A DNA stretch of 34,454 nt from Candidatus Binatia bacterium (GTDB lineage Bacteria > Desulfobacterota > Binatia > UBA12015), in NCBI GenBank assembly GCA_019749875.1, contig JAIEPK010000589.1, positions 1 to 34,454 of the forward strand, written 5' to 3'. The notes below the pieces were generated by a model, which saw only the letters and a list, made by a program, of their open reading frames with translations, ran no database searches and was not told where the DNA came from. Of this stretch, positions 2,379 to 33,060 are shown in pieces. A program made the translations under genes and the position numbers. The stretch's first letter is position 1; each line of letters starts with the position of its first letter.

Positions 2379-3200
2379 TTACCGCAGCAACTGAAGTGCC
2401 AGCTGAGGCTGCTGGTTGGCCTGCGCGAGGATCGAGACGCTGGCCTGCTGCAGGATCGTGCCGCGGGTCAGGTTCGCCGTCTCCTCGGCCACGTCGGCGT
2501 CGCGGATGCGCGACTCGGCGGCGGAGAAGTTCTCACGCGCGACCTTGAGGTTCGCGATGGCGGTGTTGAGCCGGCTCTCGACCGCACCCAGCGTACCGCG
2601 CGACTGCGCGACGTTGGTGATCGCGCTGCTGATCGCGCCCAGCGCCGACTGCGCCGCAGCGGCCGTCGACACCGAGACGTTCGAGAGGCCGACGCCGCTC
2701 GACGAGCCGTCGACCGTCGAGAACGAGATGCGGCTGTTCGAGCTGCCGTCGAGGCCGACCTGGAGATCGACCGTCGTGCCGCCCGACAGGAGTGCCACGC
2801 CGTTGAACGTCGTGGTCGACGAGATGCGGTCGACCTCGGACACCAGTGCGGTGAACTCGGTCTGGATCGCGCTGCGCTGCGTGTTGCTGACCAGGCCGGT
2901 CGCCGACTGCGAGGCCAGCTCGGACAGACGGGTCAGGATCTCGCCGACCTTGCCGAGCGCCTTCTCACCGATGCTGATCGCCGAGATGCCGTCGTTGGCG
3001 TTGCGCACCGCCTGGCTGGCGCCGCGCACGTCCGAACGGAGCTTGTCGGCCAGCGCGAGACCCGCCGCGTCGTCGGCGGCGCTGTTGATGCGCAGACCCG
3101 ACGACAGACGCTCGAACGAGCGGTTCAGCACGCCAGTCGAGTTGTCCAGGTTGCGCTGCGCGTTGAGGGACGGAACGTTGGTGGAAATGTTCAGAGCCAT
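2379..3200 (-). CDS. fliC: Flagellin (filament protein), short type
   Basis: This is the filament subunit. The 273-residue product has the conserved N-terminal D0/D1 region (MALNISTNVPSLNAQRNL, then RLSSGLRINSAADDAAGLA) and the C-terminal helix with VSILAQANQQPQLALQLL. Only a short, Ser/Thr/Val-rich stretch lies between them, so the surface domains D2/D3 are absent or minimal. The start is the ATG at 3200 because it matches the family N-terminus and follows GGAGGA at good spacing. In-frame ATGs at 3212 and further up would add residues not seen in flagellins. A small hairpin (GGGCT/AGCCC, loop of 3) lies in the leader at 3213-3225. The frame stays open far upstream, but that is only high-GC read-through. 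Confidence 0.96.
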   Translation of the reverse strand: MALNISTNVPSLNAQRNLDNSTGVLNRSFERLSSGLRINSAADDAAGLALADKLRSDVRGASQAVRNANDGISAISIGEKALGKVGEILTRLSELASQSATGLVSNTQRSAIQTEFTALVSEVDRISSTTTFNGVALLSGGTTVDLQVGLDGSSNSRISFSTVDGSSSGVGLSNVSVSTAAAAQSALGAISSAITNVAQSRGTLGAVESRLNTAIANLKVARENFSAAESRIRDADVAEETANLTRGTILQQASVSILAQANQQPQLALQLLR

Positions 3201-3580
3201 GCTGTCCTCCATGGGCTCGTAGCCCCGGACGTCCATGCCGGGCTCGGCCAAGTTGGAAAGTGCCTCCGGCTCACCCCGAGCCTTCGTGCTCTCTTTCCGG
3301 TTCGCCCCGCATTCGAGTCGCGCGCGGGAGAACTTGAGAGCCGAATTTCGTCCTTGCGCAAAGAAGTCGGCGAATTGCGCAGACGCGATGCGCGGTCCTG
3401 CGCGCTCCGCGCCGTTCGTGCCCCGGGAGGCGCTCTCCGGTGGTCGTCGGCCCGTGCGGGCGGGTGCTGCGGCACGGCACGACGACGGCGAGCGGTCGTC
3501 ATTCCGTCGGAAATCGGCTACGACCCGACGCGGAAACCCGTGGGTCCCGGACCCGCGACCACGACACGGAGGGACGGACG
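3201..3580. other. Divergent intergenic region, flagellin / LolA-like gene
   Basis: These 380 bp should carry the promoters of both the flagellin gene and the LolA-like gene. Visible structure is the leader hairpin at 3213-3225 and a pair of TTGCGCA words at 3354-3361 and 3375-3381. I looked for a sigma-28 or sigma-54 type promoter for flagellin and found none convincing. No further coding region is apparent. Confidence 0.5.
3354..3381. promoter_or_regulatory. Paired TTGCGCA words, possible operator
   Basis: An 8-base perfect palindrome TTGCGCAA (3354-3361) and a second copy TTGCGCA (3375-3381) start 21 bp apart, about two helical turns. They lie in an AT-richer patch between divergent genes. 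A binding site for a dimeric regulator is possible, but nothing ties it to a known protein. Confidence 0.25.
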
Positions 3581-4351
3581 ATGGGCAAGCGCATCCTGAA
3601 CGGCACCGCCTGGGCGCTGGCGGCTCTGCTGGCACTGGCGCCGGTCGCGGCACGAGCGGCGGGCGACGATGCCGGCGCGCTGGTGCGCAAGGCGGTGGAC
3701 GCGCTGCCGAAGAAGCCGTTCACGGCGCAGCTCAAGCTGACCCCGGCGGGCCAGCCGACCCGTGAGCTGACCCTCGACCACAAGGTCGTCGGCGGCGCGC
3801 GTGCGAGCTACCTCGAGGTGACGGCGCCCGAGGCGCTGTCCGGGATCCGCTTCCTCTTCCTCGAGCACCCGAGCGGTCAGCCGGAGCAGTACATCAAGGT
3901 CGCCGCGGCGCGGAACGCGGTGCAGGTGAAGGACCAGGTGCGCAAGCAGCCGTTCCTCGAGTCCGACTTCTACGTCTCGGACCTCGTCGAGCCGCAGGTC
4001 GACGCCTACGAATACAAGCTCGTCGGCGAGGAGGATCTCCTCGGGCGCAAGACCAAGCTCGTCGAGTCGGTGCCGAAGAACTCGGCGAACGAGATCTATG
4101 GCAAGACCGTGGTCGCCATCGACCCGCAGGACCTGCTGATCCTCAAGCGCTCGTTCTACGACCTGAAGGGCAACCTGCTGAAGGTCTGGACGATCGACCA
4201 GGTGGAGAAGGTCGACGGGGTGTGGACGTTCCGCAAGCAGACCATGACGACGGTCCCGGCGAAGACGAGCTCGACCCTCGAGACGCCGGAGGTGAAGTAC
4301 GACGTGGAGCTGAAGGACTCGATCTTCACGCCGGAGCACCTGCGCCGCTGA
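3581..4351 (+). CDS. Outer membrane lipoprotein-sorting protein (LolA-like family)
   Basis: The 256-residue protein has a clear Sec signal peptide (charged start, hydrophobic ALAALLALAPVA, likely cut after ARA near residue 26). The mature part is beta-rich and has the features of the LolA-like 'outer membrane lipoprotein-sorting protein' family, including the closing segment in which KYDVELKDSIFTPEHLRR leads to the stop. These periplasmic proteins are thought to carry a lipid or lipoprotein and often pair with an MMPL/RND permease. Such a permease lies about 5 kb away at 9306. The ATG at 3581 is chosen because GGAGGGACGGACG precedes it and the signal peptide starts there; longer readings lack a signal. 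The substrate is unknown. Confidence 0.82.
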   Translation: MGKRILNGTAWALAALLALAPVAARAAGDDAGALVRKAVDALPKKPFTAQLKLTPAGQPTRELTLDHKVVGGARASYLEVTAPEALSGIRFLFLEHPSGQPEQYIKVAAARNAVQVKDQVRKQPFLESDFYVSDLVEPQVDAYEYKLVGEEDLLGRKTKLVESVPKNSANEIYGKTVVAIDPQDLLILKRSFYDLKGNLLKVWTIDQVEKVDGVWTFRKQTMTTVPAKTSSTLETPEVKYDVELKDSIFTPEHLRR

Positions 4352-9305: not shown

Positions 9306-11630
9306 ATGGAAACGTACGCCCGCTTTCTCGTCCGCCGCGCCTGGCTGGTGCTGCTCGCCGTCGCGCTGCTGACCGCGTGGCTCGCGATGGGCCTCGCGAA
9401 GCTGCGCACCGAGTTCGACGTCGAGAAGAGCCTGCCGCGGAACCACCCGTTCGTCACCATCGACAAGGAGATCCGCAGCAAGTTCGGCGGACGCAACACG
9501 ATCATCGCGCTGCTCGTGCCGAAGGACGGCGGCGACGTCTGGCGCACCGACGTCCTGCGCGTGGTGCGCGACGCGACGCTCAAGGCGCTGCGCCTCGACG
9601 ACGTGATCGCGCAGAACGTGATCAGCCTCGCGTCGCCGAGCGTGCGCTACGTGCAGGAAGTCGGCGGCAGCCTCGACATCGACCTGCTGATGCGCGACCC
9701 GCCCGAAACGACGGAGGACATCGCCGCGCTGCGTGCCAAGGTCGACGGCGACCCGCAGCTCGCCGGCATGGTGGTCACGCCCGACCAGAAGGCCGCGGTG
9801 CTGATCATGGACTTCTGGCCGGGGCCGCAGGCGTACGATCTCGCGACGCGTGCGCTGGCACTCGGCGACGAGCTGCGCGACGCGCCGGTGTCGATCTACT
9901 TCGCCGGCGAGCCGATGATGGCGCTCACCGACCGCCAGCAGTCGCAGGAGGTCGGGATGCGCATCCCGATCACGTTCCTGGTGATCGGCGTGATGCTTCT
10001 GCTCTCGTTCCGCAACCTGCAGGGCATGCTGATCCCGATGCTCACGGCGGCGCTCAGCACCGTGTGGGGACTCGGCCTCATGGGTCACACCGGGCTCGTG
10101 ATCGACACCTGGAACGTCGCGACGCCGATCCTGCTGATCGCGATCGCGGCCGGTCACTCGGCACAGATGCTCAAGCGCTACACCGAGGAGGTTTCGCGCC
10201 TGGGCGACAATCGCGAGGCCGTCGTGACGTCGACGGCGTCGATGGGTCCGGTGATGCTCGCCGCCGGCGGCGTCGCCACCATCGGCTTCGCGTCGCTCGC
10301 GCTCACCGGCATCCCGGCCATCGCGGGCTTCGGGCTGTCGTGCTCGTACGGCATCGGCAGCGCGGTCCTGCTCGAGATGACCTTCATCCCGGCGCTGCGC
10401 TCGGTGCTGCCGGCCCCGAAGCGCGGGCTCCGCAAGTCGCGCTGGACGTCGGCGCCGCTCGCGTTCCTCGAGCGCGCCATCCTGCGCGACGGTGGCCGGC
10501 CGGTGCTGATCGCGACCGCCGTCCTGTTGCTGCTCGCGATCGTCGGCGCGACGCGCATCCGCACCTACGGAGCGACGCGCGAGTACATGGCGCGCGGCAG
10601 CCTCCCGGCGGTGCACCTCGCCGAGATCGAGAAGCACTTCCCGGCGACGGTGACCATGACGATCCTCTACGAGGGCCCGCCCGAGAGCGTCAAGCAGCTG
10701 CCGCTGCTGCGCCACATGGACGGCCTGCGGACCGAGCTCGAGAAGGATCCGCTGGTCTGGCGGACGGCGTCGCTCGGCGACCTCGTCAAGACGCTGCACA
10801 AGACCTTCAACGGCGACGCGCCGGATCCGTACCGCATCCCGGACGACCAGGAGCTGGTGTCGCAGCTGATCTTCCTCGGCGACTCGCCGGCCTTCGAGCG
10901 CTTCATCGACCGCGGCTACACCAAGTCGCTCCTGGTCGCGTACCTGCGCAGCGACGACTCCTCGCTGGTGGGCCCGCTGGTGCGGCGCGCACAAGACTGG
11001 GTGGCGAAGAATCCGCCGCCCGACGGCGTGCGCGTGCTGATCGCGGGTGGTGTCGCGCCGACGATCCTCGCGGTCAACGAGCACACCACGCACAGCAAGA
11101 TCCTGAACATGGTTCTCGTCCTGCTCTCGATCTACGCGGTGTCGTCGATCGTCCTGCGCTCGCCGCTCGGCGGCGTGTACGTGGTGACGCCGATCGTGGT
11201 CACCGTCGTGCTGCTGTTCGGCCTGCTCGGCTGGACCGGCATCCGTCTCGACATGGGATCGGCGTCGCTGATGGCGATGGCGGCCGGCATCGGCGCGGAC
11301 TACGGCATCTACTTCCTCTACCGGCTGCGCGAGGAGCGCGCGCGCAGCACGAGCGACGCGGAAGCGCTGCATGCGGCGCTCGAGACCTCGGGTCGTGCGG
11401 TGATCTTCGTCGCCGCCAGCATCGGCGCGGGCTTCGCTGCACTCGGGCTGTTCTCGGACTTCTTCGGCCTGCGCCTGTTCGGTACGCTGATGCCGATCGC
11501 CATGGTGATCTCGTGCGTCGCGGCGCTGTCCGTCATGCCGGTGCTGGTGCTGCGCACGCGACCGGCGTTCCTGCTCGGTGCGGCGAGCGACGACGCCCCG
11601 CCGCCGGACGCGCGCCCCGTGATGCCCTAG
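9306..11630 (+). CDS. MMPL/RND superfamily membrane transporter
   Basis: The 774-residue permease has the RND/MMPL layout: TM1 near residues 12-32, a large periplasmic loop, a bundle of membrane helices from about 220, then a second copy with a second loop and a second bundle from about 595. The second half holds GIGADYGIYFLYRLREE, the GxxxDY motif with the Asp that relays protons. The matching site in half one reads AIAAGHSAQMLKRY, without that Asp. It resembles the HpnN/MMPL-type lipid exporters more than drug-efflux AcrB. No membrane-fusion protein or outer membrane channel is next to it. GAGG precedes the ATG. It is co-transcribed with TetR. Substrate probably hydrophobic (lipid, hopanoid or steroid-like), by inference. 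Confidence 0.9.
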   Translation: METYARFLVRRAWLVLLAVALLTAWLAMGLAKLRTEFDVEKSLPRNHPFVTIDKEIRSKFGGRNTIIALLVPKDGGDVWRTDVLRVVRDATLKALRLDDVIAQNVISLASPSVRYVQEVGGSLDIDLLMRDPPETTEDIAALRAKVDGDPQLAGMVVTPDQKAAVLIMDFWPGPQAYDLATRALALGDELRDAPVSIYFAGEPMMALTDRQQSQEVGMRIPITFLVIGVMLLLSFRNLQGMLIPMLTAALSTVWGLGLMGHTGLVIDTWNVATPILLIAIAAGHSAQMLKRYTEEVSRLGDNREAVVTSTASMGPVMLAAGGVATIGFASLALTGIPAIAGFGLSCSYGIGSAVLLEMTFIPALRSVLPAPKRGLRKSRWTSAPLAFLERAILRDGGRPVLIATAVLLLLAIVGATRIRTYGATREYMARGSLPAVHLAEIEKHFPATVTMTILYEGPPESVKQLPLLRHMDGLRTELEKDPLVWRTASLGDLVKTLHKTFNGDAPDPYRIPDDQELVSQLIFLGDSPAFERFIDRGYTKSLLVAYLRSDDSSLVGPLVRRAQDWVAKNPPPDGVRVLIAGGVAPTILAVNEHTTHSKILNMVLVLLSIYAVSSIVLRSPLGGVYVVTPIVVTVVLLFGLLGWTGIRLDMGSASLMAMAAGIGADYGIYFLYRLREERARSTSDAEALHAALETSGRAVIFVAASIGAGFAALGLFSDFFGLRLFGTLMPIAMVISCVAALSVMPVLVLRTRPAFLLGAASDDAPPPDARPVMP

Positions 11631-11702: not shown

Positions 11703-13934
11703 TCAGCGACCGGGCGAGACGACGCCCTTGCCGCCCGAGCGGCCGGACGTACGGAGCCTGCGCGAGCGCACGCGCGGTGTCGCCGCCCGGCCGGTGAGAC
11801 GGCGCTCGATCCAGCGTCCGGCGAGAACGACCACCGTCAGCACGCCGACCAGCAGCACGACGTTCGACGGATCGGGACGGCGCAGCGTGCGCATCAACTG
11901 CTCGGCGAACGCGGTCGCGCCGACGACGCCCGGCAACATGCCGATCGTCGTCCCGATCACGAAGTCGCGCAGGCCGACCTGCGCGGCACCGGCCGCCACG
12001 TTCACCACCGTGTACGGAGCGAGCGGCAGCAGGCGCACCACGGTCATCACCGCGACACCGTGCCGCGACAGCCGGTTGCCGAGCTTGCCGAGGCGGCTGC
12101 CGAACAAGCGCCGGACGCGGTGCCGGCCCAGGCCGGCACCGAGCGCATAGCCGGTGAGCGCACTGAGAAGCGCTCCGAGCAGAGCGTACACGCCCCCCGG
12201 GACGGCTCCGAAGGTCGCGGCAGTGACGACGATCAGGAGCGTCACCGGGACCAGCAGCAGGCCGCCCGCGACGAACATCCCCGCCACCACCGCCGGCCCC
12301 CAGGGTCCGTGCGCGAGCGGTGTGAGCGTCGCGCGCAGGCGCTCCGGGTCGAGCCACTCGCCGAGCGGGGTCGCGACCCATGCCGCGACGCAGCCGACGA
12401 CGAGCAGCAGCGCGACCACCGCGGTCGCACGGCCTGGCCCGCCGGACGCGAGCGGCGCGACCATCTGCTCCAGCTCGGCCGCCGGAATCGGACGCTCCGG
12501 GTCGACCACCGCGGCCTCGGGAACGACGCTCTCGAGCCACGGCGTGACGGTCCCGTCGAGCGGCTCGAGGGTGCGGGGGCGACCGCGCAGCGCCTCGATG
12601 GTCGCGTGCGGCGAGCGCGTGCGCTCGAGGTGTCTCGCGACCACGTCGAGCGGACAGTCGAGGTGCTCCGCCAGAAGGCGCGTCAAGAGCCGCAGCGCGG
12701 GCGCGCGCACCGCGCCGTCACCCGGGTCCTCGATGGCGAGGTCACATTCGCTGTCGAGACCCATCGAGCGATTGTTGAGGTTCGCCGAGCCGACCCGCAC
12801 GAAGCGGCCGTCGACGATCGCCAGCTTCGCGTGCACGTTGATGCGCGCCTCGCCGAGCCCGGGCACCGTCGGCGCGTAGATGTGGAAGCGGCCGTACGGG
12901 TCCGCTGCACGGATGCGCCGCAGCAGGCGCGCCCGCAGCACACCCATCGTGCTCTCCTCGAGCCATCCGGCGCACTTGCCCGGATTGACGACGACGATCT
13001 CGGGACCGTCCGGCTCCGCCAGCCGCTCGAGGATCGCATCGCCGACGCAGGCCGCGGTCAAGTACTGGTTCTCGACGTACACCCAGTCGCGCGCGCGGCG
13101 GATGCTGTCGACCCACAGCGCCTCGACCTCGCGCACCTCGTCCTGCTCCTGGTAGGCCGCGAGCGTGCGCGCGATCGCGACGTTCACGTCGCGCATCTCC
13201 GCGGTCGCGCTCGGTGGCCAGGGCTCGCCGGCCTTCCGGACGGGACGGAGCGTGCGTCCCGTGGCGCAGCGCCAGCGTGCACGCACGAGGTCCCCGATCG
13301 CCGCTGCCGCCGGACCTTCGACCAGCATCTGCACGTCGTGCACGGGCGGGAACGGGTTGCCCTTGGGATCGCGGCGGCGCGGGTCGTCGGCGCGGTGCTC
13401 GGTCGTGTCCCAGCGTCCCATCGCGATGTCCATGCCGCCGACGAAGGCGATGCGATCGTCGACCACGACGATCTTCTGATGGTGCGCGCCGCCGATCGGG
13501 TGGCACGGATCGAGGCGGAAGTGGAAACGTCGCGGCATGCGCCAGGCGAAGCGATACGCCGGCAGCAGCTCGCGCTCCATCGCGTAGAGCATCGGAAAAT
13601 CCCAGTCGAGCACGTGGACGTGCAGCGAGCGGGTGCGGCGCAGCGCCTGGGCGAGAAACGACGCGAGCTCCGCTGGCAGCTCGGACGGGCGCGACCCGTG
13701 CCAGAGATCGATGCTGCCGTTGAAGTCCCAGCCGGCGATCAGCACGCTCGAGCGCGCACGCTCCACCGCCTCGGCGAAGGCGCGAAAGTAGGCCTCGGCG
13801 TCGACCAGCACGGCGACGCGGGTCGCGGGCGCGACGCGCCAGCAGTTGCGCCCGGGCTCGAGGATCGCCGGGGGGTGCGATGCCGCGGTGCCGTCCGCGG
13901 CGTCCTCGCGCGTCGCGGCCGTCTCGCCGGACAT
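11703..13934 (-). CDS. Phospholipase D-like / VTT (DedA-type) membrane fusion protein
   Basis: The protein (743 residues from the ATG at 13934) joins two units. Residues about 25-480 form a phospholipase D superfamily domain with both HKD motifs: H152-K154-D159 (HHQKIVVVD) and H368-K370-D375 (HAKLAIVD). Each is followed by the usual G-x-x-N/D region (VGGMDI; GSANLNNRS). Residues about 520-720 form a VTT/SNARE-associated domain with several membrane helices and the reentrant-loop pattern (ATFGAVPGGVYALLG; VVRLLPLAPYTVVN). Such domains occur in lipid scramblase-like DedA proteins. A phospholipid-handling enzyme tethered to a lipid transporter is inferred. A GTG at 14024 with GGAGG at 8-base spacing is a serious alternative start (773 residues) and overlaps a small upstream ORF. 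Confidence 0.88.
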   Translation of the reverse strand: MSGETAATREDAADGTAASHPPAILEPGRNCWRVAPATRVAVLVDAEAYFRAFAEAVERARSSVLIAGWDFNGSIDLWHGSRPSELPAELASFLAQALRRTRSLHVHVLDWDFPMLYAMERELLPAYRFAWRMPRRFHFRLDPCHPIGGAHHQKIVVVDDRIAFVGGMDIAMGRWDTTEHRADDPRRRDPKGNPFPPVHDVQMLVEGPAAAAIGDLVRARWRCATGRTLRPVRKAGEPWPPSATAEMRDVNVAIARTLAAYQEQDEVREVEALWVDSIRRARDWVYVENQYLTAACVGDAILERLAEPDGPEIVVVNPGKCAGWLEESTMGVLRARLLRRIRAADPYGRFHIYAPTVPGLGEARINVHAKLAIVDGRFVRVGSANLNNRSMGLDSECDLAIEDPGDGAVRAPALRLLTRLLAEHLDCPLDVVARHLERTRSPHATIEALRGRPRTLEPLDGTVTPWLESVVPEAAVVDPERPIPAAELEQMVAPLASGGPGRATAVVALLLVVGCVAAWVATPLGEWLDPERLRATLTPLAHGPWGPAVVAGMFVAGGLLLVPVTLLIVVTAATFGAVPGGVYALLGALLSALTGYALGAGLGRHRVRRLFGSRLGKLGNRLSRHGVAVMTVVRLLPLAPYTVVNVAAGAAQVGLRDFVIGTTIGMLPGVVGATAFAEQLMRTLRRPDPSNVVLLVGVLTVVVLAGRWIERRLTGRAATPRVRSRRLRTSGRSGGKGVVSPGR

Positions 13935-14305
13935 CGCCACCGCGATCCTTCCTGCGTCGATCCTGCGCTCGAGCTTCCGCACGCCGAGGCGCGAAGGGCC
14001 GTGTGCATCGCTGCGCCAGCTCACGCGTGCTGCCTCCGGCTGCCGGTGCAGCAGTACTTGACGGTCGGGTTGCGCATCACGAGCCTCCGACGACGCGGCG
14101 GAGCGCCGCGTCGTGCGGCCTCGCGATCGCAAGACACGTGCCCCGGCGGCGACCATGCGCCCGTCGGCCGTCGCGCCGCACCCGCGCGGGCTTCACCGGC
14201 AGACCGTCGCGCTCGAGCGTCGCGCGGATCTGCAGTTTCTACAGACGCGCCGGAAGGATCGGGCAGCGCGCGCGCCCGGTGTACCCGCCGCAGCGTCCGA
14301 TCGCT
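13935..14305 (-). other. Leader region of the PLD-VTT gene
   Basis: These 371 bp separate the AI-2E permease stop from the ATG of the PLD-VTT gene, all on the minus strand. The region holds the candidate 18-codon leader ORF (14021-14077) and the alternative GTG start of PLD-VTT (14024). The rest, 14078-14305, has no gene I can support and may hold the PLD-VTT promoter. Confidence 0.5.
14021..14077 (-). CDS. Possible 18-residue leader peptide ORF
   Basis: An ATG at 14077 preceded by GGAGG with 6-base spacing opens an 18-codon frame encoding MRNPTVKYCCTGSRRQHA. Its TGA overlaps by 4 bases (GTGA) the candidate GTG start of the PLD-VTT gene. A strong ribosome site plus a GTGA overlap is the layout of a translationally coupled leader. 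The peptide has a Cys pair and a basic end but matches nothing I know. It could be a chance ORF. Confidence 0.3.
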   Translation of the reverse strand: MRNPTVKYCCTGSRRQHA

Positions 14306-16153
14306 TCAGGCCACCAGGTTGCGACGCTCGTCGCCGCTCGCGGCGACGACCTCGAGCAGCGCCTCGCGCGCGGCGCGCGTGCCTTCCACGACCGCCGTCG
14401 CGCCGGCGCTCGCGAGCGCCCGAGCCGTATCGCTGCCGCGCTCCCCCGGCGCCTCGGGCAGCACCACCACGATCGGCACGTTCGGAAACTGCCGGCGGAT
14501 CCGCCGGCACAGGTAGCGCGCCGCAACGGCGCCGCGCGGCGGCAGCGCCGCGATGCATATCGCGTGCGGATGCGCGGCCTCGACGTTGGCGAGAATCTCC
14601 AGCGAGCCCATGCCGGGCCACAGTCGCTCGAGCAGCACCGGGTCACGCGCCAGCTCGTGCATCAGGATCTGCAGCACCAGCGCATCGCCCTGCCCGCTCG
14701 CGGGACAGCCCAGGACGCGCGCCGCTGTCGTCTCCGGCGCTGCGTCGCCGGTGCCGGGCGCCGCCGCCGCGCGGGCGATCGAGGTCAGCAGCCGACGCGC
14801 CGCGCGGTGCATGCGATGCTCCTCGTCGGACGTCAAGCGCCCGTTGCCGCGGTCGTCGCTGGTGCGGACGAGCACCGGCAGCAGCAGCTCGTCGTACGCG
14901 TCGCACTCGGGATGCAGGCGGGAGTAGTCGGCGAGGATCTCGCGCGCCTCCTCGTCGTCCGCCGCGAGCAGACGCTGGTAGAGTCGCACGTCGGGCTCGA
15001 GCACCTGCTCGTCGGCGAGCAGGTAGTAGATGAAGTGCAGCTCGGGAACGTGCTTGCTCATGACCACCAGACACACCGTCAGCGGAGTGGCGAGAACCAG
15101 GCCGATCGGTCCCCAGAGCCACGTCCAGAAGGCGATCGCGGCGAGCAGCGACACCTGCGAGACGCCCGCCGACTGCCCGTACAGCAGCGGCTCGACGATC
15201 ATGTTCGCGATCAGCTCGCACGCTGCGAACAACGTCACCGCGAGCAGCGGCACCCGCCAGCCCGGAAACGCCGCCAGCGCGATCAGCACCGGCATCGCCG
15301 CACCGAGGAACGGACCGACGTACGGAACGAAGCGCAGGCACGCGGCGAGAAAGCCCCACAGCAACGCGTACGGCACGTCGAGCAGGTAGAGTCCCGCACC
15401 GACCGTCGCGCCGTAGCCTGCGTTGAGCAGCGACTGTGCGACCAGATAGCGTCCGATCCGCGCGGCCGCCTCGTCGAAGGCGCGCGTGGTCACGGCGAGC
15501 CGCCCGTAGCCGATCAAGCGGATCAGGCGGTCGCGCAGGTCGCGCCGCTCGAGCAGCATGAAGATGACCAGCACCAGCACGAAGCCGGCGCTGGCGAGCC
15601 CTTCCAGGAGCGAGGGAATCTGCCACAAGACCGACGGCGCCTGCATGACCACCGGCACCGGCGAATCGCGTGAGCTCGCCGCGAGGCCACGCTGTGCCGC
15701 ACGCCGGCCCGCACCACGGTCGAGCGCCGACATCACGTCGTCGGCCGCGGCGCGAACCTTGTCGATGATGCCGCCGCTGGTCGCGCCCTGGACGTCGACG
15801 ATCTTCGCACGGATGTTCGAACGATACGCAGGCAGCTCGTCGGCGAGGCGCGTCGCCTGCCATGCGAGCGCGAAGCCGACGCTCGCGAGCAGCGCGAACG
15901 CGAGCACCGTGACGACGGCGACCGAGCCGATCCGCCCGAGACCGATGCGCTCGAAGCCGCGCACCACCGGGCTCAGCAGAAAGGACAGCAGGACCGCCAG
16001 CGCGATCGGGATGAGCACGGCCTGCGTCCAGTAGAGAACCGCGACCGCCAAGGTGCAGCCGATGAAGATGGCGACCGTGTTCAGGCGGCGGCGCTGCGCT
16101 GCCGCATCGGCCGTGATCGCGGCCGACGGCTCCGCGTCGTCGTTCAGTGCCAC
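14306..16153 (-). CDS. AI-2E family transporter with soluble C-terminal domain
   Basis: The 615-residue protein has the PF01594-type membrane unit (about 25-375). It starts with hydrophobic helices (TVAIFIGCTLAVAVLYW; AVLIPIALAVLLSFLLSPVV) and carries the family region RFVPYVGPFLGAAMPVLIAL. A cytoplasmic tail of about 240 residues follows; its last part (about 480-605) looks like a Rossmann-like, cobalamin-binding-type fold (RVLGCPA, then AICIAALPPRG), but the cobalamin motif DxHxxG is not seen. The start is the GTG at 16153, inside the end of the hybrid kinase gene (10-base overlap); no ATG fits the N-terminus. Family members move AI-2 or other small molecules, or ions; AI-2 transport here is not shown. 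Coupling to the kinase suggests linked roles. Confidence 0.88.
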   Translation of the reverse strand: MALNDDAEPSAAITADAAAQRRRLNTVAIFIGCTLAVAVLYWTQAVLIPIALAVLLSFLLSPVVRGFERIGLGRIGSVAVVTVLAFALLASVGFALAWQATRLADELPAYRSNIRAKIVDVQGATSGGIIDKVRAAADDVMSALDRGAGRRAAQRGLAASSRDSPVPVVMQAPSVLWQIPSLLEGLASAGFVLVLVIFMLLERRDLRDRLIRLIGYGRLAVTTRAFDEAAARIGRYLVAQSLLNAGYGATVGAGLYLLDVPYALLWGFLAACLRFVPYVGPFLGAAMPVLIALAAFPGWRVPLLAVTLFAACELIANMIVEPLLYGQSAGVSQVSLLAAIAFWTWLWGPIGLVLATPLTVCLVVMSKHVPELHFIYYLLADEQVLEPDVRLYQRLLAADDEEAREILADYSRLHPECDAYDELLLPVLVRTSDDRGNGRLTSDEEHRMHRAARRLLTSIARAAAAPGTGDAAPETTAARVLGCPASGQGDALVLQILMHELARDPVLLERLWPGMGSLEILANVEAAHPHAICIAALPPRGAVAARYLCRRIRRQFPNVPIVVVLPEAPGERGSDTARALASAGATAVVEGTRAAREALLEVVAASGDERRNLVA

Positions 16154-19100
16154 TTGACGCTCGTCTCGGCAGACCGGCGTGCCAGCGACGCGACCATGGC
16201 GACCAACTCGGCGGGCTCGACCGGCTTCGCCGCGTGCATCTGGAAGCCGGCCAGCAGTGCGCGGCTGCGGTCTTCGGTGCGTGCGAACGCGGTCAAGGCG
16301 AGCGCGGGGACCGCGCCGCCGGCAGCTTGGGCGCGGCTGCGCACGTAGCGGATCAGCTCGTAGCCGTCGCGCTCCGGCATCGCGATGTCGCTCACCAGCA
16401 CGTCGGGCCCGTGATGATCGAGCGCTTCGACCGCCTTGTTCACCGACGGCACCGCGCACACGTCGGCGCCGCCCTCCTCGAGGATCGTCTTGATCAGCTC
16501 CCGCGTCTCGAGGTCGTCGTCGACCACGAGCACGCGCAGACCCGCGAGCGGCTGGCCGACGTCCTCCTGCGCCGCGTTCCGCTCCGCGTCGACGACGGGG
16601 CGCGCGGCACCGTGCGCTCGCGACGTGAGCATCGGCAGCGTCACGTAGAAGCTCGCACCCTGATTCTCTCCGGAGCTTTCCGCACGCACCGTGCCGCCGT
16701 GCAGCTCGACCAGGTGACGCACGATCGCGAGACCGAGCCCGAGACCACCCGACCGTCGCGTCGTACTGCTGTCGACCTGCCGGAAGCGGTCGAAGATGCA
16801 GGCCAGGTCTTGCGGACGGATGCCGCAGCCATCGTCGCGCACGCAGATCACGGCTTGCGCACCGCGGCTCTCGAGCGCGACCTCGATCGAGCCGCCCTTG
16901 GGCGTGAACTTGACGGCATTCGAGAGCAGGTTCCAGAACACTTGCTGCAGACGGTTGCTGTCGCCGGCCACCACGACGGCGGCGGGATCGACGTGCGAGC
17001 GCACGCGGATGCTCTTCGCCTCGGCCGCCGGCCGCGTCGCCTCGATCGCCGCTTCGATCACCGGCTCCAGATCGAGGGGCTGGACCTCGAGCCGCAGCTT
17101 GCCCGAAACGATGCGCGAGACGTCGAGCAGATCCGAGATCAGGCGCGTCTGCGCCTGTGCGCTGCTCTCGATGCGCTCGAGGCCGCGGGCGATCTCGGCC
17201 TCGGTGCGCTTGCCCCGCGTCAGCAGCTGGCACCAGCCGAGGATCGCGGTCAGCGGCGTCCGCAGCTCGTGCGACAGCGTCGCCAGGAACTCGTCCTTGG
17301 TGCGGTTCGCGAGCTCCGCCGCGTGCCGCGCTTCCTGCGCGGCGCGGTACAGCGCCGCCTTCTCGAGCGACACCGCGGCCTGCGCGGCGATCGCCAGCAC
17401 GACGCTCTCGTGCCGTTCGGTGAAGCGGCCTTGCTGGCGGTGGCCGAGAAGAATCGTCCCGAGCAGTCCGCCTTCGCTGGTCACCACGGGGACGGACAGC
17501 AGGCTGCGCACCGTCGGATGCCCCGAGGGCGGTCCGAAGTGCGGCACGTTCTTGCCGTAGCGCCGATCGCTGGTGACGTCGTCCAGGCGCAGCACCAGGC
17601 GGCCTGCGAACGCGGGCCCGAGCAGCGTGGTCGCGCGCGGCGGCCGGAGCCCGGCGAAGACCTCGGGCCCGACGCCCGAGACCGCATGGACGCCCTCGTC
17701 CTGCCCTTCGTCGAGCGGGCCGCTGTAGAAGAATGCTCCCATCTCCGCGGCCGAGCACTCCGTAGCGGCATCGATGACGTCCTGGATCAGCGCCTGCAGA
17801 TCGAGCTTCGCCGCGAACGAGCTGGTGATGCGGTGCAGCGTCTCGACCGCTTCGCGCTCGAGCTCGAGCCGCTCCTCGTACTGCTTGCGCTCGGTGATGT
17901 CGCGGACGTGCGCGGTGAACTCGCGTCCGGAGTCGAGGCGGATCTCGCTGACCGTCACCTCGACCGCGAACTCGCGACCGTCTTGACGACGCGCGGTCGC
18001 CTCGATGCGCTGTCCGAGGAAGCTGCGGCCTCCCTCACGGAGATAGCGCTCGAAGCCCGCACGCAGCGCCTCGCGGTACGACGCCGGAATGATGGTGTCG
18101 AACAGGTCGCGCCCGAGCACTTCGGCGCGCGTGAAGCCGAACGCATGCTCGGCCGCGCGGTTGAACTCGGTGATCCGGCCGCTCTCGTCCATCGCGACCA
18201 CCGCGTCGAGCGAAGACTCGAGAATCGCGGCGCGGCGCGCCTCGCTCTCCCGACGTGCAAGCAGCAGCGCCTGCAGGACGCTGGCGTTGCGCTCGGCATC
18301 GTGGCGCGCCTCGGCCTGCGCACGCATGGCGAAGAACAGCAAGCCCGCGACGAGGAAGCCGCTGCCGAGGATCCACGGCACCACGCCGCGTCGCGACTGC
18401 TCGTCGAAGCTCGCCGTGCTGCGGAACGACACGGTCCAGTCGCGTCCTGCGAGATTGATCTTGCGCTGCGTGGCGTACGCCGCCGCGGCTCCGTCAACCC
18501 CGTCGTCGCCGGGCTGCCAGCTGTAGAGCGAGCGTCCGAGCTCGGCGTCGCGGATGTCGAACGCGATCTGCGGGTCGTCGGGTTGCTGCACGCTCGCGGC
18601 GACGAACTCGGCCGTGTCGAACGGGCTGAACACGTACCCGGCCAGGCTCGCGCGGCGGGCGCCCGCTCCTTCCGGCGTCGCGCCCGAGACGAACACCGGC
18701 AGGAAGACCACGAAGCCGTCCACGCCGCTGGACGCGGTCGCGCCGTCGGTGCCGTCCGCCGCGGCCGCCACGCCGGAGTCGCGCGCGCGCTGCATCGCCG
18801 TGCGGAGGCGAGGCTCCACGCTCAGGTCGATGCCGAGCGCGCGCGTGCTGGCCTCGTCGAGCGGCTCGAGCGCGATCACGGGGAACAGCTCCGCGCGCTC
18901 GCCGGCCGGACGGACGGCGAAGCCCGGAATCCCGCCGGCCGCGATCCGGTGCTCGAAGCTCGCACGGTCCTCCGGACGCACTCGTGCCACGAATCCGATC
19001 CGGCCGAGGCCAGGATAGTGGCCCGGCAGGTCGAGCGTCGCGACGAAGCGTCGGAAGCGCTCGAGATCGACGAATCCGGGTTCGGAGAGAAGCGCGCCCG

Positions 19101-19302
19101 CGGACTGCAGGACGACGCCATACGTATCGAGTCGTCCCTCGATCGCGTCGGCGATCTCCTCCACCCGGCTCTCGAATCGTTCGCGGTCGCGCGACTCGTA
19201 CACCGAGTATGCGGTCCAGCTCGCGACCAGGGTCGCGGCCAGGACCAGCCCGGCGACGCCGAGCGGCGGGCCGTAGCGCTTCCAGTTGGTCGACGTCTTC
19301 AT
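16144..19302 (-). CDS. Hybrid histidine kinase: CHASE1-PAS-GAF-HisKA-HATPase-REC
   Basis: The 1052-residue protein starts with a membrane helix (12-31). A CHASE1-like extracytoplasmic sensor (about 45-300) and a second helix (308-325) follow. Inside the cell it has a PAS domain (355-472), a GAF domain (495-650), HisKA with phospho-acceptor H678 in LSHELRTPL, and HATPase_c (N791/N795 in NLLSNAVKF; DDGCGI; GGLGLGL). A receiver domain closes it, with D972 in VLVSDIAMP. An external ligand is probably sensed by CHASE1 and the signal passed from H678 to D972 or to a partner receiver. It is divergent from an NtrC-type activator and a lone receiver, the likely partners. The ATG at 19302 places the first helix near the N-terminus; its ribosome site is weak, so 19434 remains possible. 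Confidence 0.93.
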   Translation of the reverse strand: MKTSTNWKRYGPPLGVAGLVLAATLVASWTAYSVYESRDRERFESRVEEIADAIEGRLDTYGVVLQSAGALLSEPGFVDLERFRRFVATLDLPGHYPGLGRIGFVARVRPEDRASFEHRIAAGGIPGFAVRPAGERAELFPVIALEPLDEASTRALGIDLSVEPRLRTAMQRARDSGVAAAADGTDGATASSGVDGFVVFLPVFVSGATPEGAGARRASLAGYVFSPFDTAEFVAASVQQPDDPQIAFDIRDAELGRSLYSWQPGDDGVDGAAAAYATQRKINLAGRDWTVSFRSTASFDEQSRRGVVPWILGSGFLVAGLLFFAMRAQAEARHDAERNASVLQALLLARRESEARRAAILESSLDAVVAMDESGRITEFNRAAEHAFGFTRAEVLGRDLFDTIIPASYREALRAGFERYLREGGRSFLGQRIEATARRQDGREFAVEVTVSEIRLDSGREFTAHVRDITERKQYEERLELEREAVETLHRITSSFAAKLDLQALIQDVIDAATECSAAEMGAFFYSGPLDEGQDEGVHAVSGVGPEVFAGLRPPRATTLLGPAFAGRLVLRLDDVTSDRRYGKNVPHFGPPSGHPTVRSLLSVPVVTSEGGLLGTILLGHRQQGRFTERHESVVLAIAAQAAVSLEKAALYRAAQEARHAAELANRTKDEFLATLSHELRTPLTAILGWCQLLTRGKRTEAEIARGLERIESSAQAQTRLISDLLDVSRIVSGKLRLEVQPLDLEPVIEAAIEATRPAAEAKSIRVRSHVDPAAVVVAGDSNRLQQVFWNLLSNAVKFTPKGGSIEVALESRGAQAVICVRDDGCGIRPQDLACIFDRFRQVDSSTTRRSGGLGLGLAIVRHLVELHGGTVRAESSGENQGASFYVTLPMLTSRAHGAARPVVDAERNAAQEDVGQPLAGLRVLVVDDDLETRELIKTILEEGGADVCAVPSVNKAVEALDHHGPDVLVSDIAMPERDGYELIRYVRSRAQAAGGAVPALALTAFARTEDRSRALLAGFQMHAAKPVEPAELVAMVASLARRSAETSVKWH

Positions 19303-19653
19303 GCCGGGCTCGCCGGGCGCTCCGCCGAAACGGGCTACCTCGGGGCGGGCGGGCGCCCTTGCAGATTCCGGACCCAACGCGGACGTCCACCCGGCGCAGA
19401 TTCGACCCGACATTCCGTCGCGCCCGAAGCCCAAAAGCGCAGGCTTTGCCGATCTTACAATGTACGATTTACCTTCCTGTAGACTTTACCGGTTCAGGCA
19501 AGAAGGAAAGCCACGATGGTGCAGGGTTTCGAGCGGTCGAGATCGGGAGCGACATTTGCGAGGACGGGCGGCGCGCTCGGGGCGAGAGGTAGGACTGCGA
19601 TCTCTCGTCGGGCGCGACCACGCGCACCAGGAAGCGCCAGCCGGAGGAGAGTG
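19303..19653. other. Divergent intergenic region, hybrid kinase / NtrC regulator
   Basis: These 351 bp hold an unusually AT-rich island at about 19436-19510 in an otherwise GC-rich window, marking the likely promoter zone of one or both genes. Within it lies a direct repeat (listed separately) and a TACAAT hexamer (19456-19461) that resembles a -10 box but lacks a good -35. No sigma-54 promoter was found by eye. Confidence 0.5.
19461..19490. promoter_or_regulatory. Direct repeat TGTA-N3-TTTACC, possible regulator site
   Basis: Two 13-base units, TGTACGATTTACC (19461-19473) and TGTAGACTTTACC (19478-19490), start 17 bp apart and share 10 of 13 bases. They lie in the AT-rich island between the divergent kinase and regulator genes. 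A binding site for the local regulator is a reasonable guess, nothing more. Confidence 0.35.
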
Positions 19654-21069
<1,416 letters not shown>

Positions 21070-30797: not shown

Positions 30798-31225
30798 GGG
30801 ACGACGGCGCGCGGATTGGCCGCGGTCGGCTCGTACCAGTGCTCGGAGAAGCTCAGCACGCGCACGACCGTCTCGAAGTGGCCGTCGGCACGTGCCGGCT
30901 CGGTCGGCAGGTCGTAGCGGAACTGCGCTCGCCCGTTTGCGGGGATCGGCTGCTCGACCCGCACCACCGTGCCGCTGCCGGGATTGTCCTCACCAGGCTG
31001 CATCTCCTTCTCCCAGCGCCACTGCCGCTCGACCATCAGCCGCACGTCGCGCACCTCGTGATCGGTCTCGTTGACCACCCAGCCGGTGACCGATGCACCG
31101 TCGCTGCGCACGTCGCGCACCTCGAGCCCGCTCGGCGCGTCCGCCGCACGAGCCCCCGTCGCGGCGAGCGCGAGGAGCATGCAGAGCGAGAAGGTCGTCA
31201 AGGCCGTTTTCTGCAAGAGCTTCAC
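30794..31225 (-). CDS. Exported protein with FxLYD-like beta domain, first gene of treYZ operon
   Basis: A 143-residue protein whose GTG start (31225) gives a good signal peptide (LLQKTALTTFSLCMLLALAATGARA). An ATG at 31291 would put 22 extra polar residues ahead of the signal. The mature part is a single beta sandwich: VRDVRSDGASVTGWVVNETDHEVRDVRLMVERQW looks like the FxLYD-type domain, in which a new backbone substitution keeps contacts between strands. It ends with LSFSEHWYEP. Its stop overlaps the treY start by 4 bases, an odd partner for cytoplasmic trehalose enzymes. Function unknown; I infer a periplasmic role. Confidence 0.75.
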   Translation of the reverse strand: MKLLQKTALTTFSLCMLLALAATGARAADAPSGLEVRDVRSDGASVTGWVVNETDHEVRDVRLMVERQWRWEKEMQPGEDNPGSGTVVRVEQPIPANGRAQFRYDLPTEPARADGHFETVVRVLSFSEHWYEPTAANPRAVVP

Positions 31226-31428
31226 GTTGGTTGCCCCCTGTTCCCCCGGATCGGCCCGGGCACGCGCGCTGCGCTGCAAGCACACGGCCAACCTCGAGGC
31301 CGCCTGAATCCATGCAGTTCGGCGCTCCGAGGCCGCACCGCGCGGACGAAGTTACAAGCCCGACGCCCGATTCCACACCGCTTCCAGGTCCCCGGCGGGG
31401 CGGCACGGATCGTGGAGCGCGAGCGGGC

Positions 31429-33037
31429 ATGCAGTCATCCGACGATCAGCCATCCGCCGATCCGTTCGCCGCCGACCGCGATGCCGTGACGGCGTGGGAG
31501 CACGACTCCCGTCAAGCGCGAAGCGACGGGCGCAGGCTGGTGCGCGTGCCGCTGCGCAGCGACGCCGAGTGCGACGTCTGCGTCGTCGGCGCAGGCATCT
31601 TTGGGTTGACGGCGGCCTATCTGCTGCAGCACGCCGGGCGCCGCACGATCGTGCTCGACGACGGTCCGATCGCCGGCGGCCAGAGCGCGCGTACCACCGC
31701 CCACCTCGCGACCGCGATCGACGGACGCTTCAGCGCGATCGAGAGCGCGCACGGGCGCGACAAGGCGCGCCTGGTCGCGGAAAGCCATGCCGCCGCGATC
31801 GCGACCATCGAGGACGTCGTGCGCGAGGAGCGCATCGCCTGCGACCTGCGCCGGGTCGACGGCTTCCTGTGCGCGGCGAGCACGGACCCCGATCACCTTC
31901 GCGCGCTGCACGACGAGCGCGACGCCGCCGCGCGCGCGGGGCTCGAGGTCGAGCTGCTCGCACGACCGCCGGTGCGCGGCCTCGGCGATGGTCCGTGCCT
32001 GCGCTTCGCCGCGCAGGGGCATCTGCAGCCCTTGCTGTACCTTGCCGGTCTGGCCGAGGCGTTCGAGCGCGCCGGTGGGCAGATCTACACGGGAACGCGC
32101 GCGGCCTCGCTCGAGGGCGGCTCGCTCGCGCGCGTGCTCTCGACCGACGGCCGCACGATCGCGTGCAAGGCGATCGTGGTCGCGACCGGGACGCCGATCA
32201 CCGACGGCGTCGTCGTGCACGCGCGGCAGGCCCCGTACATGACGTACGTCGTGTCCGCGCCGATCGACGGCCACGACGTCGCTGACGTCCTGCTCTGGGA
32301 CACGGCCGAGCCGTACCACTACGTGCGCCTCGCCGGGATCGATGCTGGCGGGACGCGACGCCTGATCGTCGGCGGCGAGGACCACAAGACCGGCCACGCG
32401 CGCGACGGCGCCGAGCGCTTCGCGCGCCTCGAGCGCTGGGCGCGCGAGCGCTTTCCCGAGATCGGCCCGTTCGATCGCCGCTGGGCCGGCCAGGTGTTCG
32501 AGCCGGCGGACTTGCTCGCGTTCATCGGGCGCGATCCGCTCGGTGACGAGAACGTGTTCATCGGCACCGGGTTCTCCGGCAACGGCTACACGTACGGTAC
32601 GCTGGCCGGCCTGCTGGTGCGCGACCTGGTGTGCGGTCGCGACAATCCCTGGCGCGCCGTGTACGACCCCGGCCGCTTCCCGGCCGACGCGCGCTCGGTC
32701 GGTCGGCTGGTGCGCGAGAACCTGGACGTCGCGGCTCGCTATGCCGACTGGCTCCGGCCGGGCGAGGTCACGAGCGAGACCGCGATCGCCGCCGGCGACG
32801 GCGCGATCGTACGGCGCGGGCTCGACCGGATCGCCGTCTACCGCGACGTCGACGGCACGCTCCACCGTTGCCACGCGGCCTGCCCCCACCTCGGCTGCAG
32901 CGTCGCCTGGAACCCTGCCGAGCGGACGTGGGACTGCCCGTGTCACGGCTCGCGCTTCACGGCCACGGGGCGACTGATCGTCGGCCCGGCAAATGACGAC
33001 CTGCGCGTGCTCGAGGCGCGCCGCGACGGGGAACGCA

Positions 33038-33060
<23 letters not shown>
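31429..33060 (+). CDS. FAD-dependent oxidoreductase with C-terminal Rieske [2Fe-2S] domain
   Basis: The 543-residue protein has an N-terminal DAO-type FAD domain: CVVGAGIFGLTAAYLL with G54-A55-G56, an ARTTAHLATA block after it, and FIGTGFSGNGYTYG for the second FAD contact (about 380). The Rieske domain at about 450-535 has the cluster ligands C485/H487 (CPHLGC) and C503/H506 (CPCH), plus the disulfide pair C490/C505. The family, typified by YhfW of Bacillus, is cytoplasmic and its substrate is unknown; electrons would flow between FAD and the cluster. The ATG at 31429 follows GAGCGGGC. It overlaps the next SDR gene by 23 bases. Confidence 0.93.

Follow-up and report, generated by a model that had tools for sequence, protein, structure and literature searches.

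Transporters of the AI-2E family and cobalamin-binding modules are both known, and their fusion has appeared in print at least once. HaAI-2E (WP_052573826) is reported to consist of an AI-2E domain, a cobalamin-binding domain (CBD) and a diguanylate cyclase (DGC), to carry Arg in place of the cobalt-ligating His and to bind only hydroxocobalamin and neither adenosylcobalamin (AdoCbl) nor methylcobalamin (MeCbl), and is called light-independent (PMC11796333). Here we describe a related locus on a contig of a Candidatus Binatia bacterium (JAIEPK010000589.1, positions 1 to 34,454; this whole stretch of 34,454 nucleotides is the window), in which the gene for an AI-2E permease with a C-terminal cobalamin-fold module starts within the last codons of the gene for a CHASE-domain hybrid histidine kinase. 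Like HaAI-2E as described, the window permease has an AI-2E domain followed by a CBD with neither the cobalt-ligating His nor a light-responsive signature. HaAI-2E has Arg at that place and a DGC behind it, whereas the window permease has Asp, no fused output and an overlapping hybrid-kinase gene; this comparison follows the published description.

Other described systems resemble individual parts of the locus. The membrane domain is like that of TqsA (YdgG; 7nb6), the AI-2 exporter of E. coli, whose 344-residue chain stops where the B12-fold tail of the window permease would start. Pairs of transporters and kinases are known in general, for instance BceAB-BceS, DctA-DcuS and UhpC-UhpB, as are transporter-fused kinases such as CbrA. 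In such pairs the sensor kinase and the transporter are encoded or work together, whereas the transporter of the window is of the AI-2E type with a B12-fold tail and its interaction with the kinase is putative. The tail shares a four-helix cap and a Rossmann subdomain with CarH, CtMerR and the photocobilins (Z 14-18); these proteins are reported to bind AdoCbl (PMC11796333), CarH with a cobalt-ligating His where the window permease has Asp490. Cobalamin-fold domains are also found in the regulators AppA (SCHIC domain, 4heh/4hh3) and AerR (7te2), and AppA SCHIC, which reportedly uses heme instead of cobalamin (PMC10734443), is among the best matches to the tail structure. AppA SCHIC and AerR are part of regulators acting on PpsR, whereas the domain of the window is part of a permease. 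In the open-licence literature we found no account of how widely the fused family is spread, of its split into a His and an Asp clade, of fusions to GAF or SpoIIE, or of a hybrid-kinase gene overlapping that of the permease, as described below.

With moderate confidence, we interpret the window permease as a signalling protein whose B12-fold domain has been put to a new use and whose gene shares an apparent operon with that of a hybrid kinase.

The permease and its cobalamin-fold tail

The permease is assigned to the AI-2E family (PF01594) with 162.7 bits against a curated cut-off of 34.3. Its membrane domain matches TqsA in sequence (E 3.8e-21), and a model of the full-length protein (pLDDT 83.5, pTM 0.64) matches TqsA first (Foldseek E 6.3e-11, TM 0.71 on the target, 25% identity) and cobalamin modules next. 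The tail was modelled separately with AlphaFold2 (residues 376-615, 70 sequences in the input), which yielded four helices followed by an alternating beta-alpha domain with a mean pLDDT of 92.4. Foldseek searches with this model returned cobalamin modules at the top (8jbs, 8j2w and methionine synthase; E ~5e-8) and CarH next. In VIA-align the top rows are tied between photocobilin 8j2w (Z 18.3, rmsd 3.7, 201 residues aligned), AppA SCHIC (4hh3/4heh, Z 18.2, rmsd 3.5/3.3, 202/200 aligned), so that the model also matches the SCHIC fold, and MetH (1bmt, Z 18.1, rmsd 4.1, 219 aligned).

By sequence, a profile of the tail finds solved cobalamin proteins (8jbs, E 7.2e-6), and at E<=0.05 the Pfam domains B12-binding and B12-binding_2 are matched in 46 and 40 of 70 tails, respectively, many of the single matches lying below Pfam's cut-off. 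The B12-binding_2 match of the window permease itself is weak (E 0.0022, 18.6 bits against a Pfam cut-off of 23). As modelled, the permease tail is a MetH/CarH-type cobalamin module composed of a four-helix cap and a Rossmann fold. The original prediction had proposed a soluble domain with a cobalamin-binding-like fold and no DxHxxG motif at about residues 380-615, and the AlphaFold2 model, Foldseek and VIA-align bear this out with a confident cobalamin-type fold.

When the tail profile is aligned with 8jbs, a conserved Asp of the tail falls on the His of GDLHEIA. This place is occupied by Asp in 86, His in 13 and other residues in 7 of 106 distinct tails, the window's included (109 sequences, from 108 loci and the window, minus three duplicates; L130 was excluded for its short tail), and Asp490 is conserved at >=90% in an alignment of 42 sequences. 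All 13 His-type tails keep [DE]xHxxG and, by eye, a GG that is missing by eye from the window permease; they come from a single family (f9) of the window's class. The permeases that keep the motif (L040-L043, L129, L131-L135, L137, L139 and L141) could bind a corrinoid.

A tree of the membrane domains, built under a "quick" setting with SH-aLRT support only and with two outgroup rows on very long branches, holds 100 of the 106 tails. Four (L035, L036, L060 and L142) were removed by hand and two (L113 and L140) by length; with the copies L044, L054 and L128 already gone as duplicates, three proteins are wholly missing from it. The 100 CBD permeases split from 14 AI-2E proteins of the class that have no CBD (SH-aLRT 98). 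Within them the His rows form one clade (90), as do 85 Asp-type rows (82 with Asp, 3 with other residues; 87), and the latter clade spans Acidobacteriota, Planctomycetota, Verrucomicrobiota, Pseudomonadota, Rokuibacteriota and other phyla. Because the Asp type forms a clade of many phyla, the missing His motif looks like a fixed change rather than decay. One fusion and one His-to-Asp change would be the simplest history, within the limits of rooting, support and sampling. It is unlikely that the module of the window permease holds cobalamin in the manner of CarH.

Several relatives carry further domains behind the module. Tails exceed 300 aa at 11 of 109 permease loci, and the 10 that were scanned (all but L085) contain GAF in nine cases and SpoIIE in one; GAF is also present in two of four plasmid-borne relatives scanned, those of Nitrobacter hamburgensis and Paracoccus yeei. 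At a Rhodospirillales locus (L108:7041-8597), an AI-2E permease with a B12-fold tail continues into a SpoIIE-type phosphatase domain, and on an Azospirillum lipoferum plasmid (L169) an AI-2E transporter adjoins a diguanylate cyclase, a HAMP histidine kinase and a SiaC/SiaB/SpoIIE cluster. As the usual place of action of GAF, SpoIIE and DGC domains is the cytosol, the tail is probably cytosolic as well. A signalling role of the permease family is supported by the GAF and SpoIIE fusions together with the published AI-2E-CBD-DGC protein (PMC11796333).

The overlap of the kinase and permease genes

The gene pair spans exactly 14306-19302. The 3' end of the kinase gene reads AAG TGG CAC TGA, and the permease GTG (16153-16151) straddles AAG and TGG, taking its G from the end of the former and its TG from the start of the latter; the overlap closes with the kinase TGA and amounts to 10 nt on the minus strand (Table 1), so the original prediction located the permease start correctly. 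Between 30 codons before and 40 codons after this GTG, a single further in-frame ATG, GTG or TTG occurs, 34 codons downstream, and a start there would truncate the first membrane segment. In a second genome, G003, which belongs to another genus of the same family, an ATG stands at the position aligned to the window GTG. At that junction (L034, ATGGCCGTGA) the ATG start gives a 10-nt overlap, and a GTG two codons on gives an overlap of 4 nt, GTGA.

It had further been claimed that the overlap forces coupled translation, which overstates what the junction can tell. Same-strand overlapping genes are described as very common, with -4, -1 and -8 as common overlaps and -8 to +6 nt as the range indicative of reinitiation (PMC10666635). 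The -10 overlap falls outside this range and in a rarer phase. Termination-reinitiation is plausible for such an overlap, and the kinase and permease may be translationally coupled, but the overlap does not force it.

The kinase itself contains CHASE, PAS, GAF, HisKA, HATPase_c and Response_reg domains as found by Pfam. CHASE, HisKA, HATPase_c and REC each score above their own cut-off, which identifies the protein as a CHASE-sensor hybrid histidine kinase, and hydrophobic segments at about residues 14-34 and 307-328 flank the CHASE domain.

Recurrence of the pair and alternative explanations

Among the 14 genomes of the family, only those of the window (G000) and G003 carry the permease (E<=1e-40) and the kinase (E<=1e-120). 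In both permease carriers the genes overlap, and the order NtrC-kinase-permease-PLD/VTT (the last a phospholipase-D-motif protein) is common to them at 65% identity for the kinase and 66% for the permease. The overlap is thus not limited to the window's genome. In another family of the class (G039; L037:5681-8017, minus strand), a CHASE3-PAS-HisKA-HATPase-REC hybrid kinase lies head-to-head with a permease; a few kb away is the gene of an NtrC relative that shares 57% identity with that of the window. This arrangement is suggestive. A further genome, G016, has a full-length CHASE relative (36%) on contig C2 and the permease on contig C41.

Beyond the family, the permease is found in 28 of 148 genomes of the class (E<=1e-40) and, at E<=1e-90, in 2 of 395 genomes of the phylum, both within the class. 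The kinase lies upstream at 2 of 28 informative class loci, those of the window and G003. The 28 loci are what is left of 30 permease loci with flanks of <=1.5 kb once L140 and L142, where the match begins at a contig edge, are set aside; L137 has only ~360 nt of upstream sequence. A second set of 80 named loci is drawn from many phyla and comprises the best 80 of at least 583 confirmed matches (at least 590 pattern matches), leaning to the window's type; 76 of them have >=500 nt upstream, L047, L063, L064 and L094 having less. The two sets overlap by three, L006, L007 and L128 coming from the same contigs as L044, L054 and L060.

Several of the results weigh against a functional partnership of the two proteins or a re-purposed cytosolic module. 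At the cut-offs used, 12 of the 14 family genomes, one of them in the same genus, are without the permease and 12 are without the kinase. An overlapping kinase was found at 0 of the 26 other informative class loci and at 0 of the 80 named loci. The density of ORFs (open reading frames) matching a kinase profile is similar near the permease and farther away, with 8 in 463,690 bp at less than 3 kb and 8 in 546,412 bp at 3-8 kb; this count covers 88 loci (L035 and L036 excluded as copies of L044 and L054), uses a profile made partly from the searched loci, includes the G003 pair in the near count and drops matches with E above 1e-5. Since there is no such enrichment and the genomes of the class are rich in kinase candidates (206 in G000 and 138 in G003 in a first look with the kinase as query), the pairing may be accidental. 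As for the module, the binding of hydroxocobalamin reported for HaAI-2E means that loss of the His is no proof of lost corrinoid binding (PMC11796333), and a periplasmic C-terminus such as a PhoA fusion is reported to indicate for another AI-2E protein, of the UPF0118 group (PMC7221264), would contradict a cytosolic module.

Adjacent kinases were sought both by similarity to the window kinase and by profile, and distant kinases could escape either. In a clustering of the ORFs of 91 sequences (90 loci and the window), no neighbour cluster was present in more than 10 sequences besides the permease and two clusters whose largest members overlie its gene and look like overlapping frames of it; the kinase set makes up cluster 3, with members from 10 sequences.

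The distribution agrees with an ordinary lineage-specific operon, in which chance neighbours in the ancestor of two genera came to overlap through compaction and have no joint function. We regard this as a real, if tentative, possibility: the pair is confined to two genomes of one lineage, kinases are not enriched near the permease elsewhere and are numerous in these genomes, and same-strand overlaps are reportedly very common (PMC10666635). It is harder to reconcile with an overlap kept across two genera at ~65% protein identity within the same gene order, with the head-to-head hybrid kinase and nearby NtrC relative of G039, or with direct fusions to signalling domains in relatives. For a shared kinase-permease pathway the balance is about even: an overlap and a gene order that recur in two genera favour it, whereas the pair is not seen elsewhere and kinases are abundant. 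The permease family is widespread and little studied, and at the loci examined its members nearly always stand without an adjacent same-strand kinase, the second of the outcomes that had been named as refuting the original prediction. The fixed kinase-to-permease ratio that had been proposed therefore cannot be the family's general mode; what stands of the original prediction is an overlap that reaches beyond one genome and a cobalamin fold without its His.

That the tail binds a corrinoid and makes the permease a B12- or light-regulated exporter we consider highly unlikely. The fold and cap are those of CarH, photocobilins and MetH, the 13 His-type relatives of one class family retain the motif, and HaAI-2E did bind hydroxocobalamin; yet in the window protein the ligand place is taken by Asp and the GG is missing by eye, and HaAI-2E, as reported, bound neither AdoCbl nor MeCbl and was called light-independent (PMC11796333).

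The UPF0118 group of AI-2E Na+/H+ antiporters has been described with a charged signature that includes D251 in motif C and RR in motif D (PMC7221264). Judged by eye, without a computed alignment, this signature is absent from the window permease, whose motif C reads RFVPYVGPF in place of DFxPIxGSI with Arg274 at the place of the Asp, and this Arg does not vary among the 42 aligned sequences. We give least credence to the permease being simply a Na+(Li+)/H+ antiporter or a housekeeping exporter whose tail is passive, for which the reported antiport (PMC7221264) or AI-2 export (PMC9134010) of other AI-2E members could be cited. Against it stand the absent signature, the confident model of the tail and the GAF or SpoIIE domains that come after the tail in some relatives.

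A possible mechanism

If the window permease does signal by way of a re-purposed B12-fold domain, a large AI-2E clade would have gained its C-terminal MetH/CarH-type module, presumably on the cytosolic side, probably once. Because the cobalt-ligating His is Asp in most sampled sequences, the window's included, the module would most likely be regulatory or an adaptor. What it binds could be a protein, a ligand of another kind or a corrinoid held in a different way, and the module may gate the permease or report its state. In the window, the CHASE hybrid kinase and the permease appear to form an operon with overlapping frames beside a divergent NtrC-type regulator, and given this arrangement they are probably co-expressed and may take part in a common response to an envelope signal. 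In this response the CHASE domain would read a periplasmic cue, the kinase and NtrC would set expression, and the permease would move a solute or a signal. A wider proposal is that AI-2E-CBD permeases are a broad class of transceptors. Their module, in which Asp would have replaced the cobalt-ligating His once, would sense either the transport state or a new ligand, and lineages would differ in how they supply the output, as a fused domain (GAF, SpoIIE, the published DGC) or, as in the window, through an overlapping hybrid-kinase gene; we consider this proposal doubtful.

Neighbouring genes and other features of the window

The features of the locus are collected in Table 1. In G003, the NtrC-type neighbour is 94% identical and the PLD/VTT protein, with its VTT membrane domain at the C-terminal end, 65% identical, in the same gene order. 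A PLD-like match is also found downstream of the permease at L065. Sigma-54 sites with <=2 mismatches number 11 in the window against 8.7 expected by chance, with none between the kinase and NtrC genes. A scan of 13700-19800 gave 0 promoter-like matches (0.2 expected) and 2 terminator-like matches (1.4 expected).

Table 1. Positions of the kinase-permease locus and its parts within the window
Feature	Position	Strand	Remarks
AI-2E family permease with C-terminal cobalamin-fold module, 615 aa (P0001)	14306..16153	-	GTG start
AI-2E_transport membrane domain, residues 28-368	15050..16072	-	Pfam E 1.6e-47
Four-helix cap, residues ~387-463	14765..14995	-	B12-binding_2-like
Rossmann-type B12-binding-like subdomain, residues ~478-614	14312..14722	-	
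Codon of Asp490	14684..14686	-	at the place of the cobalt-ligating His of DxHxxG
10-nt overlap GTGGCACTGA	16144..16153	-	permease start within the final kinase codons
CHASE-PAS-GAF-HisKA-HATPase_c-REC hybrid histidine kinase, 1052 aa (P0002)	16144..19302	-	ATG start
NtrC-type sigma-54 activator (REC, sigma-54 interaction domain, Fis-type helix-turn-helix)	19654..21069	+	divergent from the kinase; start inferred
Phospholipase-D-motif and VTT (DedA-like) protein	11703..14156	-	downstream of the permease; longest ORF

Elsewhere in the window, an exact sigma-54 -24/-12 consensus, TGGCACTTCAGTTGCT, is located at 2386-2401 on the minus strand, where a flagellin ORF (2379-3653) has its 3' end, and lies upstream of FliD (565-1932). 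Sites with <=2 mismatches are at chance level, and exact ones are uncalibrated. A single ORF at 31093-33060 (plus strand) encodes an FAD-dependent oxidoreductase (DAO) followed by a Rieske domain, and an MMPL-family transporter with a sterol-sensing-domain match is encoded at 9306-11630 (plus strand).

Implications

AI-2E transporters are classed as antiporters or as exporters of a quorum signal. A deep AI-2E clade with a cobalamin-type module, mostly of the Asp type and in some members with signalling domains added, suggests that membrane permeases may act as receptors. The His-type family and the Asp type form a natural pair for asking what the module binds and how it controls the membrane protein.

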